Shown in pieces: positions 771-62,500 of a stretch of 64,000 nucleotides of DNA. Every line of letters begins with the position of its first letter. Positions within the stretch are counted from its first letter, which is position 1. A model generated the notes under the pieces. The model did no database searches. It was not told where the DNA came from and worked only from the letters and a program-made list of their open reading frames with translations. The translations under genes were made by a program, and so were the position numbers. This stretch comes from Sanghuangporus weigelae (taxonomy: Eukaryota; Basidiomycota; Agaricomycetes; Hymenochaetales; Hymenochaetaceae): positions 1,302,001 to 1,366,000 of the forward strand of contig CP137326.1 of NCBI GenBank assembly GCA_033182465.1, in the 5' to 3' direction.

Positions 771-2731
771 ATGTCCTCCAACGACGAACTTGCTGAAATA
801 AACGGCGTCAAGCCGAAGAAGTACCTTGCTGATGGCGAAGAGTGCGAGGCTCGGTCGCATACGAGGTCGGTTGGTTCGGTCAAAGATTGAACGGAGCCAC
901 TAATGAGTTGAATGAACGTCTGCCTGTAGTACAACCATTTACAAGATCAAACGAACCTGGGATCATTACTACTGGTATGTTGCATTTACATCCTTCCAAA
1001 CGACCGTGAATGCTGAATTGCTGTTTATTTTTCATTGTTTCAGTACATGTCCTGTACGTTATCCGAACAATAAAATGAAAATTTCATGTTTTTTGAACCT
1101 GCTTTCGTTTCAAGGCATGGAGAAATCAATCTCGCGTCCCTGTGAATGCGCGCTCGTGCAAGCATCTTCGCAGTGTCCTCGGAGACGCGTACGAAGACGC
1201 GCGTGTCGGGCATATGAACCCCGGCGCTGCGAAAAACGCCAAGAAGAGTAGCAGCAAGACGAGCAAGAATAAGAGTTCGGCGAAGAGGAAGAAACAAGAT
1301 GATGACGACGATGATGGTGAGGAAGATGCTGCTGCAGGAAGCCCGAGGAAGAAACCAAAGTCTTCGAAGAGTAACGGTGAAGCAATCGATGGTGATGAAG
1401 AAGCAGACGAAGAGGATAGTGAGGAGGGAGGGAAAGCTGTGGTTGAGGTGTTGCTCGCGGTTAAGTGGGACCTCGAGAAGGGCATTGATCCCACTGGTTG
1501 GTGGGTCTCTGAGAAACTCGACGGAGTTCGGTGAGCATATTGCCCCACAAGATTCGAGTGCGCTTGACCTCTGACGGAATGTTAGTGTCTTCTGGGATGG
1601 AAAGAGGATGCTGAGCAGGCTAGGCAACCCGTTCACTCCTCCGAAGTGGTTCATCGAGAGTATGGATTCATCTTTGAATGAAATAAATCAATGTTGATGA
1701 CTCTTTGCATCTGTAGAGTTACCGAAGGACGTAACTCTCGATGGAGAAGTACGTCGCTCTATGCGTCCATCTACTCCAATACTTCTGATCTCACTCTGAT
1801 CAATCTACAGCTTTTCGGCGGACGGGGCCAGTTCCAAAGCACCGTCTCCATCGTAAAGACACCCAACTCCCCGCGCTGGCAGGACATAACTTTCCAAATC
1901 TTCGATGTGCCCTCCTTGGGCTCCGAGCCGTTCGAAGAGCGTCTCAGCTGGCTCAGGTCCACTTTCCTTAAACTCTCCGGAGAGAGGAGGGAAAAACACG
2001 TTGCGGTCGTCGAGCATCTGAAAGCCAAGAGCCGTGAACATGTGTTTGAGTTGTTGAAGGAGGTAGAGAAGGAGGGTGGAGAGGGGCTTATGTTGAGGGA
2101 GCCAGGATCGTAAGTTGATGTTGTTTTCAGATGCATTCTTAGGTGTATGCTGATGCAAATTGTTACAAGTCAATACGCGGGTCAAAGGTCTTTTACGTTG
2201 CAGAAAGTCAAGGTCAGTCTTGTTCTTTGATACCGGCATCGCACTCCAAACTCATGTTATGATTTAGAGATTCTACGATGCGGAAGCCAAGGTGACCGGC
2301 TACGTACCTGGCAAAGGAAAGCACGACGGCGTCATGGGCGCACTGAAATGTGTCATGGCTTCAGGAAAGGTGTGTGTATTCATAACTTATCAAAAAGTAA
2401 TACTGCTAATGCGAATTTTGTCTGCCTCTCACTTGCAGACTTTCAGCGTTGGAACGGGATTCAGCGACAAGCAGCGCGCAAAGCCTCCGAAGATCGGCTC
2501 GATTATCACGTACAGGTTCCAGGAACTTACTATGGATGGAGTTCCCAGGTCAGAAATAGATGTTTTGATTACATATGAGAATTTTTAACCGAACTGGAGG
2601 AATTCTTTTGAACTAGGTTCCCATCGTATGTCGGTGAAGCGCTGGATAAGGATGAGCCGACAGATGCAGTTATTCCAAACGCAGACGCAAAGAAGGTTAG
2701 GAAGAAGACCGCTAACAACGACGAGGCTTAG
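771..2731 (+). CDS. ATP-dependent DNA ligase with N-terminal SWIM zinc finger
   Basis: 446 aa in 11 exons: 771-865, 930-974, 1044-1053, 1115-1530, 1586-1659, 1717-1748, 1811-2109, 2170-2212, 2268-2369, 2439-2548, 2617-2731. Residues about 30-65 form a SWIM finger: YYCTCPAWRNQ followed by SCKHL, i.e. CxC...CxH. A Lys/Asp/Glu-rich linker follows. The ligase core has motif I EKLDGVR (nucleophile K184), FWDG (III), LDGEL (IV), EGLMLREP (V) and a C-terminal OB-fold region. It seals nicks through a lysyl-AMP intermediate. The small adenylation+OB architecture is that of minimal viral/bacterial-type ligases, not LIG1 or LIG4. The two finger cysteines of CxC sit on a 10-nt exon. The start at 771 was chosen because the downstream text (GVKPKKYLADGEE) begins a conserved N-terminus; ACGCGT lies about 215 bp upstream. 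Confidence 0.9.
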
Positions 2732-3344
2732 GCGTAAGAATGTGGGCATTGCGCTGCGGCATGTTGGAGTGCATGCATCTTCCTTAGCCGACGGACTTCT
2801 TGAAATTTTACTGTATGCTTTTGCCTAACACACCCGTACGAGAACTCAGGAATAATTCACGCGTGTAGCTTTGTAGCTAATATTTATATCCGTAGGCTTC
2901 GCTGATAAGTAATTCTCATTTGGTTTTAGCGACAGCTCAGGGTAATTCTAAATTCGCATGGTGAGAGTCAATAAACAAAAAGCGAAACTTGCGGGAAGTG
3001 CTTTTTCTTTCGGGTATGTAGATCTCTAAAGTTCTATCACATAAAGGTTAGGTAAGGAGGGCAAGCGGACCGAAGTGAACTGAGTTATTTTCAAGAAGAC
3101 AGTGGGCGACTGGGAATGCGCAGAGGCAGCAGAGAAGCACCCAAGCATCACTTGACCTTGCACAAGGATTCGTCTGAGACCGAGAAGCGGAGAGGCTCTT
3201 CGGACTGTTGCCAGCGCAGAGAATCCAGACCAGTCACATACTTACAACAGTAGAAGAGATGCCCGGGCAGCTTGATATAGTCAATGCCCGCGATTCAAAT
3301 TGGCTTCTAGATGCGATGTTGTAAGTGTACAATTTCTATGGAGT
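2732..3344. other. Intergenic, no gene seen
   Basis: About 610 nt between the ligase stop and the stop of the ARC1-like relic. No reading frame with recognisable protein features, no tRNA arms found. Confidence 0.4.
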
Positions 3345-15818: not shown

Positions 15819-17967
15819 ATGCCTTCATCATCGCACTCACCTGCGCACTTCAAACTCCGCTCCCTACCGGTCATCGATATCGCGCCCTGGATTGCGCCCG
15901 TCTCCGCCCGCGTACGAGGCCACAACGGTGGGCGCCGCTCGACAGCCGCGGCGCTCCACGCGGCGTGTCTGACGTATGGGTTCTTTTACCTTGATGTTTC
16001 GAGCTATGTCGAGAAGGAGGAGATGGAGGAGCTTTCCGAGCTTGCGAGGTGCGTTCAAGTTGAGAACGAGCGATATATAGGGAGAGAAGTACTTATCTGT
16101 GTCGTCGGTGCTGTTACGTAGGCGCTTCTTTGCGCTACCTCAGGAGGAGAAAGATAAGATCGGATTGGCGAATCAAGACGGTGCAAGGGGTGCGTTTTTT
16201 TTTGTATCCTCCATCCTTACTCGGTCTCTCTCTAATCCCTCACTAGGTTACCAACGATTGAAAGAGAATGTAACGAATGGCAAAGCTGATAATCACGAAG
16301 GAATAGACTTCTACGCTCCCGTCGAGCAACCAGATAAGAATAAGCCTCTGCATGGCGAGAATCAGTGGCCCTCAGATGCGATTGTACCAGGCTTCCAGGA
16401 AAAGTACGAGAGGTGGGTTGAGAAGATGAAGAAGCTTGGGATGATTGTAATGGAAGCGTGAGTGTGCTGAGTGGTATGTACTGTCGTGATGTGGAGTTAA
16501 CTTATCTTTTTGGCAGGATGTCGGTTGGCCTGGGTATGACGACTGAAGAATGGTTGGATTTGAAGGGCAAAGTGGACAACTCGTTCTGGGTTATGCGCGT
16601 AATTGGTGTGTGCATCCTTGCTTCGTAAAGAACATAAGGACTTTGTTGACTGTGCCTGCTCTTAGGATACCCACCTCTACCGAATGATTTCGACGGGTTC
16701 TCATGCGGAGCACACAAGTCAGCGGTGTTCGTTCCGTGAATAAACATCTATACTGATGTTCTATCTTGCAGGGATTATGGCTGCCTAACGTACGCCATTT
16801 CACTCGCCACACGCGAAATCGGACAAATGTCATTCTGAATTTGTTATAGCTTCCTATATGCAGATTCAACACCGAACGCACTCCAAGTCTTCCTCCCTCA
16901 GACTGGGATTCTAGACGATGCCGCCACGACGCCGGTCCCTGCGGCTTCAACAACAAACCTCGCTCCAAGTGCTGCAAGCGTGCTCATCGGAGGTGTCGAA
17001 CCTTCAGACAAACCACGCCAACCGATGAATACCGAGAAAGATAGTGAGTTAGCACTCGATGAGGCGAATGGTGAGGAGGGCGTTTGGATCAATGCGGATC
17101 CATTGCCAGGGTGTATTGTTTGTAATATTGGTGAAAGTGAGTTGGGACCTTTTTCATTCTCGTTCGGAGTGGCTATTGATGAGATATGATTGAATTCAGT
17201 GTGGGAGATTTGGACAAATGGCTTGTATAAGAGTACTTTACATCGTGTTGTCCACACAGGATCAAACTATCGGTATGTTTCGAGCAGTCTGTCTCTATAA
17301 TCATACGAGAAGCTGACTGATATCTTTTTTTTTTTTCATTTGCTCAGCGTCTCGTGAGTATCCCGGTTCCTTTCGCTGACTTGCTCATCAACCGTTCTCC
17401 TATACTAGAATCCCTTTTTTCTTCGAGCCGAACTTCGACGCGCAGGTCGCACCCCTCGCCGCTGCTCTTCGTCTCCAGAAAGACTCCATCCAACCCGCAT
17501 ACGCATATCAGCCGCATACTCCGCATATACCTTATCCGCATTGCCATCACAATCAAGGCGAGCCGGCTGAGACCCTCGCACAAAGGCTCAAGGAATTGGC
17601 ATTGATGGAGCGCCTAAGTGCCCCATCATCATCTGCCTCGTCAGATAGTTCGTCTGTATATTCGATGCCTCTGAAGAATGGGAAAGATAGTGGTACCAAT
17701 AGCGGAGGGGAAGATGCAGACTCGGACAAGGCCACGACGGGCTCGATGAGCGTCCGCAGTACGCTGTCGGCTGTCTCGAACGAGACGAAAGGAGCGGACA
17801 AGAGCAATCCTCACACCCCTCGAACGCCTTACACACCCATCTCGCATACACATGTCGAGTATAAACCGATTAGCGTTGAGAAGCACTACGAGCCTGTTGT
17901 GTATGGTGAGTTCTTGATGAAGAAGGTCGGGAATAATTTCGCTACTGGAAAGGGGAAGTACGATTGA
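15819..17967 (+). CDS. 2-oxoglutarate/Fe(II)-dependent oxygenase (isopenicillin-N-synthase-like)
   Basis: 530 aa in 10 exons: 15819-16048, 16122-16189, 16247-16457, 16517-16605, 16666-16717, 16772-16789, 16850-17136, 17200-17272, 17348-17353, 17409-17967. The N-terminal DIOX_N region begins LPVIDIAPW and has CLTYGFFYL and ALPQEEKDKI. The catalytic barrel has H216-K-D218 (GAHKDYG), distal His at about 333 (STLHRVVH) and R343-V-S345 followed by IPFFFEP, the 2-oxoglutarate carboxylate site. The substrate cannot be told; such enzymes hydroxylate or cyclise small molecules. D218 lies on an 18-nt exon and R-V-S is completed by a 6-nt exon (CGTCTC), both flanked by good splice sites. A Ser-rich insertion of about 90 residues precedes a conserved C-terminus (EKHYEPVVYGEF). 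The start is the first ATG before the DIOX_N motif. Confidence 0.9.
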
Positions 17968-34205: not shown

Positions 34206-35314
34206 ATGGCGAATGTTAACGGCAGTTCAGACGCTTTGGTCATCTCATCTGATCCTAATCACGTATGCAACCAATCGACGCAACTATGACTCTTGGATCT
34301 GCTAATTGGTGCTCCATACCAGCCAGCAAACTTGATCCCAGAGTTATGCAGACAGTTCTATCATCTCGGATGGGTCACTGGTACAGGAGGTGGTATTACC
34401 ATTCGTCAAGGGTAAGTTCCCTCACTGCCGACTCATTATGCTATGCTATCTAACGTTTTCACTTGCCCAGTGATATCGTATATATCGCTCCTTCCGGCGT
34501 ACAAAAGGAGCGCATCGAGCCATTGCACATCTTCGTCCTTCCGTACCCACAACTCTCCTCTCATACAGATCGCGTCTTTCTTCGACGCCCTCACGTTCAA
34601 CTGAAAGAATCAGCATGTACGCCGTTATTCTGGAATGCGTTCGACCTGCGTGACGCAGGCTCGTGCATCCACACTCATTCGCAACATGCGGTTATGGCAA
34701 CGTTGCTTTGGCCAGGAAAGGAGTTTAGAATATCCCACCAGGTACCTTTTTTTGCTTCACACAATCGTGAACTGTGTAGCGGAATGACATTTTTCTAGGA
34801 AGTACGTCATATGCACGTATGAATTGATCATTCTCATTCATTCCTTTGCCAGATGATCAAAGGAGTGCGAATAGCGGGTACAGGTGCAGCTCTATCTTAT
34901 CTAGACACGCTTGTCATTCCCATCATCGAGAACACTCCCGACGAGGAGGATCTGAAGGATAGTATGGCAGAAGTTAGGCTGGTCCGCATCGTTACTTTGA
35001 GCACAAGCTAACACAAATCTTAAGGCGATGAAAGAATATCCTGACGCAGCTGCTGTGCTTGTAAGGCGACACGGAATCTATGTCTGGGGTAAGATTTTAT
35101 CACTGATCCAGAAACATCGGCTAATCATCGTTTAGGTCTTGATTGGCAAAAGGCGAAGACTCAGACAGAAGTGCGTTGACTGCATTGCTTTTTACCTCTG
35201 ATGAACATTAATTCGTGTTCATTTTCTTAGTGCTTGGATTATCTATTTGAAATCAGCGTCAAGATGAAATTAGCAGCACTTCCAACGGTATTAAATGATG
35301 ATACAAGTAAATAG
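34206..35314 (+). CDS. MDE1: Methylthioribulose-1-phosphate dehydratase
   Basis: 240 aa in 8 exons: 34206-34262, 34323-34411, 34471-34741, 34799-34801, 34853-34972, 35025-35088, 35136-35170, 35231-35314. Class II aldolase/adducin fold of the methionine salvage pathway: [22 protein letters not shown], zinc ligands in [11 protein letters not shown] (H-x-H) and RRHGIYVWG, then [13 protein letters not shown]. It dehydrates methylthioribulose-1-phosphate to the diketone. The conserved HQEMIKG segment is split so that Glu140 alone is encoded by a 3-nt exon (GAA, 34799-34801) between introns of 57 and 51 nt, each with consensus ends (GTACCT...TTTCTAG and GTACGT...TTGCCAG). Its position, 22 residues after the second zinc His, equals that of the catalytic Glu of human APIP as I recall it. 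Confidence 0.93.
34799..34801 (+). other. MDE1: 3-nt microexon (single Glu codon) of MDE1
   Basis: GAA between acceptor TTTTCTAG and donor GTACGT. Inclusion gives HQ-E-MIKG as in family members; joining the flanking exons directly gives HQ-MIKG with no frame change. Confidence 0.8.
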
Positions 35315-59593: not shown

Positions 59594-62500
59594 ATGGTGG
59601 GTGCACAAGATGGCATAGAAGGCCACTCCGGTGAATCCTCCACGCCACAGAACGGCGAAAAAGAATTCTTTACCCCGCCGGGATCATCGGCGAACGATCA
59701 CCCCTTGAACGAGGCAAAACACGGCTATTTCCCATACAACGAAGAGAAGACACTTCAGCATGTACGTTTTCCGCGCACACTACTCTGACTTTTGCCGTGA
59801 TGGCTACTGATGATGTCGAAGATCGAGGAGAAAATGGCTGCGCATAGACGCCTTTCGCAGGGAACACCTGTTTCGGCACTCTCGCCTCTCAGTGACCGCA
59901 TGACACCGCATGTATCTCCTCTCATCCTCCCCAGACAAGCTCAACAGCTTACCGATGACCTTTCTACGCTTCATCTTGCGCCTGATGACGAAAGTGAATT
60001 GAAAGTAGAAAGTCATGTAGGAGAAACTGAAAGTCAGCACCGTCTCTTTCTTCTGAAGAGTCGAAATTTTATTTTAATTTGATGGTAGATGCAGCGTTTA
60101 CCCATGAGTTGCAAGTACTCTATCAAAATCTTCAAAAATGCTTGGATCTCCGCGATAAATATATGCGGCTATCCAGACAGAGGCTCGGTGACGACCCGCG
60201 AGATCACGACGAGGTGTTCATGGGCCTTGACGAGCAAGTCCAGGGCGTCGGTGGTGTTCGTCCTGATGCGAAAATCTCGGATCGGAAACCTATTCTTAGG
60301 AAGTTCGAACCATGGAAAGTTTATCCGAAGCCCCCTCCGCCACATTGGCACTGGAAGGATAAAAAGCCCGCTGTCCCAAATTCTCTAGACTATGTTGACG
60401 AAGAATTTGACTTCTCAAAATGCGAAATCCCTACTGCTGATAATCGTGGATTCGAACTGGATGACAAAGGAGTATATCAAGTCTTTGAGGATGTAACTGG
60501 TATGTCATGCAAGTGTTCTAATCGATTGTCTGACAATCTATTTTTGATTCGGTATATAGCCAGCGATAAAAGGCCGATATTTGAGGTTCCGTCGATCAGA
60601 GAATATTATATGGATCTGGACTTTGTTCTGGGTGTCATATCCGATGGTCCGACCAAGAGCTTTGCGTTCCGTCGTCTCAAATATTTGGCTAGTAAATGGT
60701 CACTTTACAGCCTTCTTAACGAATACAGGGAGGTCGCAGACATGAAGGTGAGTGGCGAAATGATGGGTCGAAAGCAATGCCATTGTCTTAAAGTTTCTTT
60801 CCTATTAGAAAGTACCTCACCGGTGAGTCCTGTACTTGTCCCGGAGCAGCGAATACTCAATTTTTGTTCAGCGATTTCTACAACGTACGGAAAGTAGACA
60901 CGCACGTGCATCATTCGAGCTGCATGAACCAGAAGCATCTTCTGCGTTTCATCAAGTCCAAAATGAAGCGTTCTCCTAACGTTCGTGCCCCTTTTGGCAG
61001 TTCTGATTATCACTCACGCGACAACAGGATGCCGTGATCATCAGAGATGGTCAGAGGCTCACACTTGCTCAGGTGTTTGAGTCGCTTTGTCTCTCTGCTT
61101 ACGATTTATCGATCGATACTCTCGACATGCACGCTCATTCTGATTCCTTCCACCGGTTTGACAAGTTCAACTTAAAGTACAATCCGATTGGGGAATCACG
61201 CTTGCGAGAGATTTTCCTAAAAACAGACAACTATATAGAAGGCAGGTATCTGGCGGAGCTGACAAAAGGTGAGTTCTAAGATCGGTGTGCTTGGACCGTA
61301 AATCCTGATGTGCGTCCATTCCAGAGGTGATGAGTGACCTTGAGCAGAGTAAATACCAGGTGACTTTGAGATGATATGATTGCCGGACCCTCTAGCTCAT
61401 GATCATGCAGAACGGCGAATGGCGAATCAGTATCTACGGCCGGAATATACAAGAGTGGGATAAAGTTGCGAAATGGGTAATAAGAAACAAGCTCTTCTCC
61501 CACAACGTCCGGTGGCTTGTCCAGATTCCTCGTCTGTATGACACTTTCAAGCAGAACGGGTCTGTGAAAAATTTCGAGAATGTCATCCGAAGTGAGCGGC
61601 CTGACGTGTTATAAGGCGCGGCAACTAAACTTATCTGGTATTTCAGATGTGTTCTATCCTCTCTTTGAAGTTACGAAGGACCCAAGCGCATATCCAGAGC
61701 TGCACGTCTTCCTCCAGCGTGTCGTAGGATTTGATAGCGTGGATGATGAATCAAAGCCCGAGAGGCGTATCCATCGGAAATTTCCCTTCCCTCGTGTCTG
61801 GGATTCAAATCAAACACCTCCGTATTCATACTGGTAGGCGGGCATCCCAGATCCTCCTATGGGTTGCGACTCACACATCCGCAGGATCTATTACCTGTAT
61901 GCCAACCTGACTAGTCTCAACAACTGGAGACGAGCACGCGGATTCAGTGAGCACATTCACATCGTGAGATGGCCTCAAATTTACGCCAGAATAGATACTT
62001 TTGTTCTGCGTCCGCATTGCGGTGAAGCGGGTGATCCGGACCATCTTACGTCTGCCTTCCTTACCTCACACTCTATCTCACACGGCATCTTGCTACGTAA
62101 AGTGCCCGCGCTCCAATATCTTTTTTACCTGAAGCAGATTGGTATCGCCATGAGCCCCTTGAGCAATAATTCCTTATTCCTTACGTATGAACGAAACCCA
62201 TTCCCGGATTTTTTCAAAATCGGCCTTAATGTCAGCTTGAGTACAGATGATCCGCTTCAATTCCATTTCACCAAGGTCAGAGACATTCACATTGATTATC
62301 CGCGGGGAAGATTGATCAGACTGCGGCCTTTTAGGAACCACTTCTTGAAGAATACAGTGTCGCAGCGCATGTAGGACCCATCCATTAGTCTTCACTGAGC
62401 GTCAGATTAAACAGTTATTTCAGATATACAAGTTCACTCAGGCCTCTCTTGCCGAGCTTGCCCGAAACTCTGTCATCCAAAGCGGTTTCGAAATGGAAAT

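Follow-up and report, generated by a model that had tools for sequence, protein, structure and literature searches.

A probable one-codon exon for the catalytic glutamate in an MDE1/mtnB gene of Sanghuangporus weigelae

The MDE1/mtnB gene and its family

The window analysed here, a 64,000-nt stretch of Sanghuangporus weigelae contig CP137326.1 (positions 1,302,001 to 1,366,000; assembly GCA_033182465.1), carries on its forward strand a gene for a methylthioribulose-1-phosphate dehydratase (MDE1/mtnB; 34206..35314), recognised as such from its spliced model by TIGR03328 and PDB 4m6r. The model runs in an intact frame from an ATG at 34206 to a stop at 35314, with eight exons encoding 240 amino acids and seven introns of 47–60 nt. 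Exon 3 (34471..34741, +), which carries Cys98, His116 and His118, ends in ISHQ; it is followed by intron 3 (34742..34798, +; 57 nt, CAG/GTACCT...TAG/GAA) and intron 4 (34802..34852, +; 51 nt, GAA/GTACGT...CAG/ATG), which leave between them only the triplet GAA, exon 4 (34799..34801, +), as the codon of Glu140, before exon 5 (34853..34972, +) begins with MIKG. Both introns are in phase 0, and retention of either one produces an in-frame stop. This layout, from the coordinates and lengths of the introns to the intervening GAA and the reading frame, is exactly that described in an earlier note on this DNA. For introns 5–7 the model relies on homology; the gene finder described below read through intron 5 and stopped the gene at 35011 in both of its versions.

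Against TIGR03328, the MtnB equivalog model, the predicted protein scores 198.7 bits, above the curated cut-off of 137.05. Among solved structures, its best relative is PDB 4m6r (E 1.3e-87, 63% identity), which we take to be human APIP; the motif HQEMIKG is identical in the two proteins, and the stretch from the zinc histidines to the glutamate aligns without a gap. His118 and Glu140 are separated by 22 residues, the same spacing as in APIP, as the earlier note had claimed. In this alignment Cys98, His116, His118, Glu140 and His196 match C97, H115, H117, E139 and H195 of APIP (numbered as in PMC5008309), the whole of the active-site set of one Cys, one Glu and three zinc histidines, and it is from the same alignment that zinc-binding roles are assigned to His116 and His118. 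Judged by sequence, the gene is a member of the MtnB/MDE1/APIP family, with a predicted function as the enzyme.

Aldolase_II has three matching places in the genome. One is the window gene, whose exons reach 51.3 and 26.3 bits with the MtnB model; at the remaining two places the same model gives 25.2 and 23.9 bits. These two aldolase-II genes (L001 and L002) have open frames that are alike, and neither GTGGG nor HQEMIKG was found in those frames, which were read directly and unassembled; they are therefore taken to belong to another subfamily, one that is apparently separate from MtnB. The window gene is the sole MDE1/mtnB recognised in the genome, which also contains a gene for acireductone dioxygenase, an enzyme of the same pathway.

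Conservation of the glutamate and evidence for the GAA exon

Searches of bacterial/archaeal and viral contigs with the single protein gave 26 and 4 pattern matches, respectively, none of which was confirmed as a relative. Querying with an alignment, through patterns that left out the region of the glutamate, yielded 393 prokaryotic relatives from 489 pattern matches; the best 80 of these 393, together with the window protein, 4m6r and a chain from Aquifex, make up an alignment of 83 rows. Glutamate occupies the position of Glu140 in all 83 rows, that is, in 82 of 82 besides the window protein, and His116, His118, His196 and Lys143 are each invariant across the 83. The position of Cys98 is not universal, holding Cys in 15 of the 83 rows (including the 11 closest loci) and Glu in 68. 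In APIP, the conserved glutamate has been described as important for substrate deprotonation (PMC3532061), and mutants of C97, H115 and E139, residues called essential for MtnB activity, are reported not to have restored cell proliferation in a salvage test (PMC5008309). Taking out the glutamate lowers the TIGR03328 score from 198.7 to 188.1 bits. The spliced model, the family score, the match to 4m6r, the conservation and the published mutants together support the view that a one-codon microexon supplies a glutamate essential in the MtnB family.

How this codon enters the message was examined by enumerating splice paths over the region of introns 3 and 4, with GT or GC donors, AG acceptors, either a single intron or a pair, and a minimum intron length of 35 nt. 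Of the 234 paths, 12 stay in frame and leave the downstream protein unchanged, and HQEMIKG arises from a single one, the path through GAA, which bears out the earlier proposal that this codon restores the conserved motif; a search for another acceptor or donor that might lead to the glutamate, which that note had suggested, found none among the 234. Nested introns (stwintrons), known in several fungi (PMC9024468, PMC12403724), or non-canonical introns could in principle deliver the glutamate by a different route. We consider this scarcely credible, for no other GT/GC–AG path within the bounds of this enumeration yields the motif, and introns 3 and 4, as resolved by the enumeration of non-nested GT/GC–AG paths, are each complete, with their own donor and acceptor and one codon between them, which is not a stwintron arrangement.

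A single intron of 111 nt, joining exon 3 directly to exon 5, also stays in frame and gives HQMIKG; skipping of the triplet thus keeps the frame and drops the glutamate, as had been predicted. The glutamate might then be truly absent, the gene being a dead or changed relative of MtnB, and the protein without it still reaches 188.1 bits against TIGR03328, beyond the family cut-off. Against such a loss, His116, His118, His196, Lys143 and Cys98 are all present in what is the only MtnB candidate recognised in a genome that retains acireductone dioxygenase, the glutamate is invariant in the alignment, and the single-intron path has the lower splicing score (below); we judge it very improbable.

This score comes from a gene finder whose training sequence, 264 kb in all, comprised the window plus 20 further stretches of 10 kb from this genome, the two focal introns being excluded from splice-site and length training and the five other MDE1 introns helping to seed it; it imposes no minimum exon length and searches introns of 36–250 nt only. 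Both versions selected introns 3 and 4 and the 3-nt exon. With the focal introns left out of training, the two-intron path scores 4.36 nats and the single 111-nt intron −2.50, or 6.87 lower. When the intervening sequence was put through 5000 dinucleotide shuffles, some AG-NNN-GT appeared in 321, whereas AG-GAA/GAG-GT with both introns of at least 36 nt appeared in 2, one of which beat its own single intron; the score of the real two-intron path was reached in none of the 5000, even with any codon allowed.

The 211 predicted introns have a median length of 57 nt (quartiles 53–63), with 191 falling within 45–75 nt and 7, none of them verified, reaching at least 111 nt. At 57 and 51 nt, introns 3 and 4 lie in the body of this predicted distribution and so are of normal size, as previously stated. 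The companion claim that all four splice sites fit the local consensus is fair, but the first donor is weak: among the 211 predicted introns, GTACCT of intron 3 ranks at the 15th percentile and GTACGT of intron 4 at the 67th, while the acceptors rank at the 49th (TAG, intron 3) and 93rd (CAG, intron 4). In the earlier version of the model the corresponding percentiles were 14th and 75th for the donors and 28th and 85th for the acceptors. A YTRAY branch site was not found near the end of intron 3, which is not rare here, because YTRAY occurs in only 91 of 177 predicted introns. The GAA exon is internal, falls within the size range of microexons (about 3–30 nt) and is bounded by two complete introns of normal size with canonical ends; as a one-codon exon it is very probably real. 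Introns 3 and 4 resemble each other no more than shuffled sequences do (local score 10; shuffle mean 12.7, 95th percentile 17), and intron duplication was rejected as the origin of the pair.

Tiny exons and the splicing of GAA

Eleven of the 149 internal exons predicted by the gene finder are of 18 nt or less. Homology backs six of these (3, 6, 12, 15 and 18 nt, and one of 14 nt that was called as 10). The predicted 9- and 16-nt exons in L020 are false, both being parts of one continuous exon, and three more lie outside the homology check: one of 10 nt (window 1044-1053), one of 17 nt on the minus strand of L020 and one of 17 nt in L025. The gene finder is weak, with at least 2 of 11 tiny exons wrong, and the intron statistics drawn from it are predictions; its first version also called a 0-nt exon in L024, which was gone in the second. 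The possible 10-nt exon at 1044-1053 stands upstream of a gene that by eye resembles an ATP-dependent DNA ligase.

Those backed by homology include two in a 2OG-Fe(II) oxygenase gene (window 16718-17408). There, an 18-nt exon (16772..16789, +) supplies the rest of a divided Lys codon as well as the Asp in the motif HKD, and a 6-nt exon (17348..17353, +) lies within RVS, supplying the last base of Arg, the Val codon and the first two bases of Ser, its flanking introns splitting both the Arg and the Ser codons. These two oxygenase motifs presumably bind iron and 2-oxoglutarate. In a Pol kappa-like gene (L020, 3078-3269), a 12-nt exon (3131-3142; MLAK, with a GC donor) is followed by one of 15 nt (3206-3220; ICSDK), and in an AMP deaminase gene (window 60748-60871) a 14-nt exon (60809..60822, +), encoding KVPH and part of R, sits between introns of 61 and 49 nt and would shift the frame if skipped. 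Judging by the window, tiny exons would seem to be common in this genome. That several are seen in conserved motifs is at least in part an effect of detection, as a missing piece is revealed only where residues are conserved.

The earlier note had gone further, proposing that methionine salvage could be switched on and off by the splicing of GAA, with regulated skipping giving an enzyme that lacks its catalytic glutamate. The exon is indeed frame-neutral, a property of all but one of the six tiny exons that homology backs (a small number, four of which come from two genes), a weak upstream donor and a strong downstream acceptor would favour skipping if paired directly, and a regulated microexon has been reported for Xlr2 of Trichoderma virens (PMC11121469). 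But the intron required for skipping, at 111 nt, would be of unusual length here, and the weak donor would have to span all of it before intron 4 leaves. Across 23 fungi, moreover, intron retention was reported to make up 61% of alternative splicing and exon skipping an average of 3%, with intron definition proposed by the authors (PMC3925392), and since the 14-nt exon of the AMP deaminase gene would break its frame if skipped, tiny exons in this genome need not be switches. We therefore regard such a switch as very unlikely. One elaboration of it would have skipping occur conditionally and the Glu-less subunits join and poison normal ones, giving dominant-negative control of salvage. APIP is reported to be tetrameric, its zinc-site mutants still multimerising (PMC5008309), and by analogy a Glu-less MDE1 subunit may still fold and assemble; the elaborated scheme nevertheless strikes us as less probable still.

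We instead favour, with considerable confidence, a constitutive one-codon exon of MDE1/mtnB, included through removal of its two short introns one after the other. As the acceptor of intron 3 and the donor of intron 4 are 3 bases apart, both introns could hardly be engaged simultaneously; they would be excised sequentially via intron definition, probably beginning with intron 4, the one with the stronger signals (GTACGT...CAG). With intron 4 out, the competing acceptor would be gone too, leaving TAG/GAA as the only junction open to the weak upstream donor; skipping would become impossible and the spliced product would carry the glutamate needed by the dehydratase. The sequence itself shows how the gene is laid out, that one of the enumerated paths leads to the motif, that the residue is conserved and that further tiny exons lie in the same window. 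Constitutive inclusion and this order of removal are what we infer, along with an origin via intron gain, in which the arrangement would be a by-product of dense short introns and the GAA exon would have been retained by selection, because loss of the codon should kill the enzyme. Some points count against the constitutive reading: the weaker member of the pair is the upstream intron 3, with its weak donor and no YTRAY near its end; a skipped mRNA, being in frame, would have no premature stop; most of the homology-backed tiny exons are frame-neutral; and the gene-finder statistics are predictions from a program that got at least 2 of its 11 tiny exons wrong.

The gene would illustrate cleanly how one codon, specifying a catalytic residue that is essential, can stand alone on its own exon. 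Gene predictors with a minimum exon length would merge its two introns and report an enzyme without the glutamate, and since tiny exons are apparently frequent in this genome, automatic annotation may miss parts of other conserved motifs as well.

Comparison with known small exons

Very small exons have been described in other fungi. Many one-codon exons, and also shorter ones, are reported from Phlebia radiata, although the case described is that of a first exon with the start codon (PMC6540522), whereas the GAA exon is internal and lies at an invariant residue. P450 genes of P. chrysosporium have exons as short as 6 bp (PMC1184071), and the authors of a study on Fusarium point to one of 8 nt within a conserved P450 motif from Phanerochaete (PMC12940212). 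The Fusarium case itself, a 1-nt exon in CYP621A found in 20 orthologues and supported by 18 reads (PMC12940212), is like the present one in that the tiny exon lies in a conserved motif and is needed to rebuild the enzyme, and in that an apparent intron of about twice the usual length betrays its presence. The two differ in that the GAA exon has 3 nt, is frame-neutral, and is predicted from the DNA of one gene. In Trichoderma virens, the microexon of Xlr2 is, as reported, regulated by glucose (PMC11121469), whereas that of MDE1 is proposed here to be constitutive. A literature search for papers dealing with both microexons and methylthioribulose, made beside general searches on microexons, found none.

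Beyond the fungi, the 3-bp micro-exon of Drosophila homothorax is of the same size and likewise comprises one codon, but it is alternatively spliced from a longer exon and falls between two domains rather than at a catalytic residue (PMC7392893). The constitutive 1-nt exon of Arabidopsis APC11, from a plant gene and tested by transcription and translation assays, shares with our proposal the model of sequential removal: its authors considered simultaneous removal of both introns unlikely, suggested intron definition with one intron leaving after the other, and cited potato invertase, in which the second intron leaves first (PMC4674806). With exons of 1 nt reported in both Arabidopsis (PMC4674806) and Fusarium (PMC12940212), the suggestion that 3 nt is close to the lower limit for the spliceosome needs correcting. 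Exons as small as GAA are already known, and MDE1/mtnB of S. weigelae adds to them another example, which by itself implies no new mechanism.
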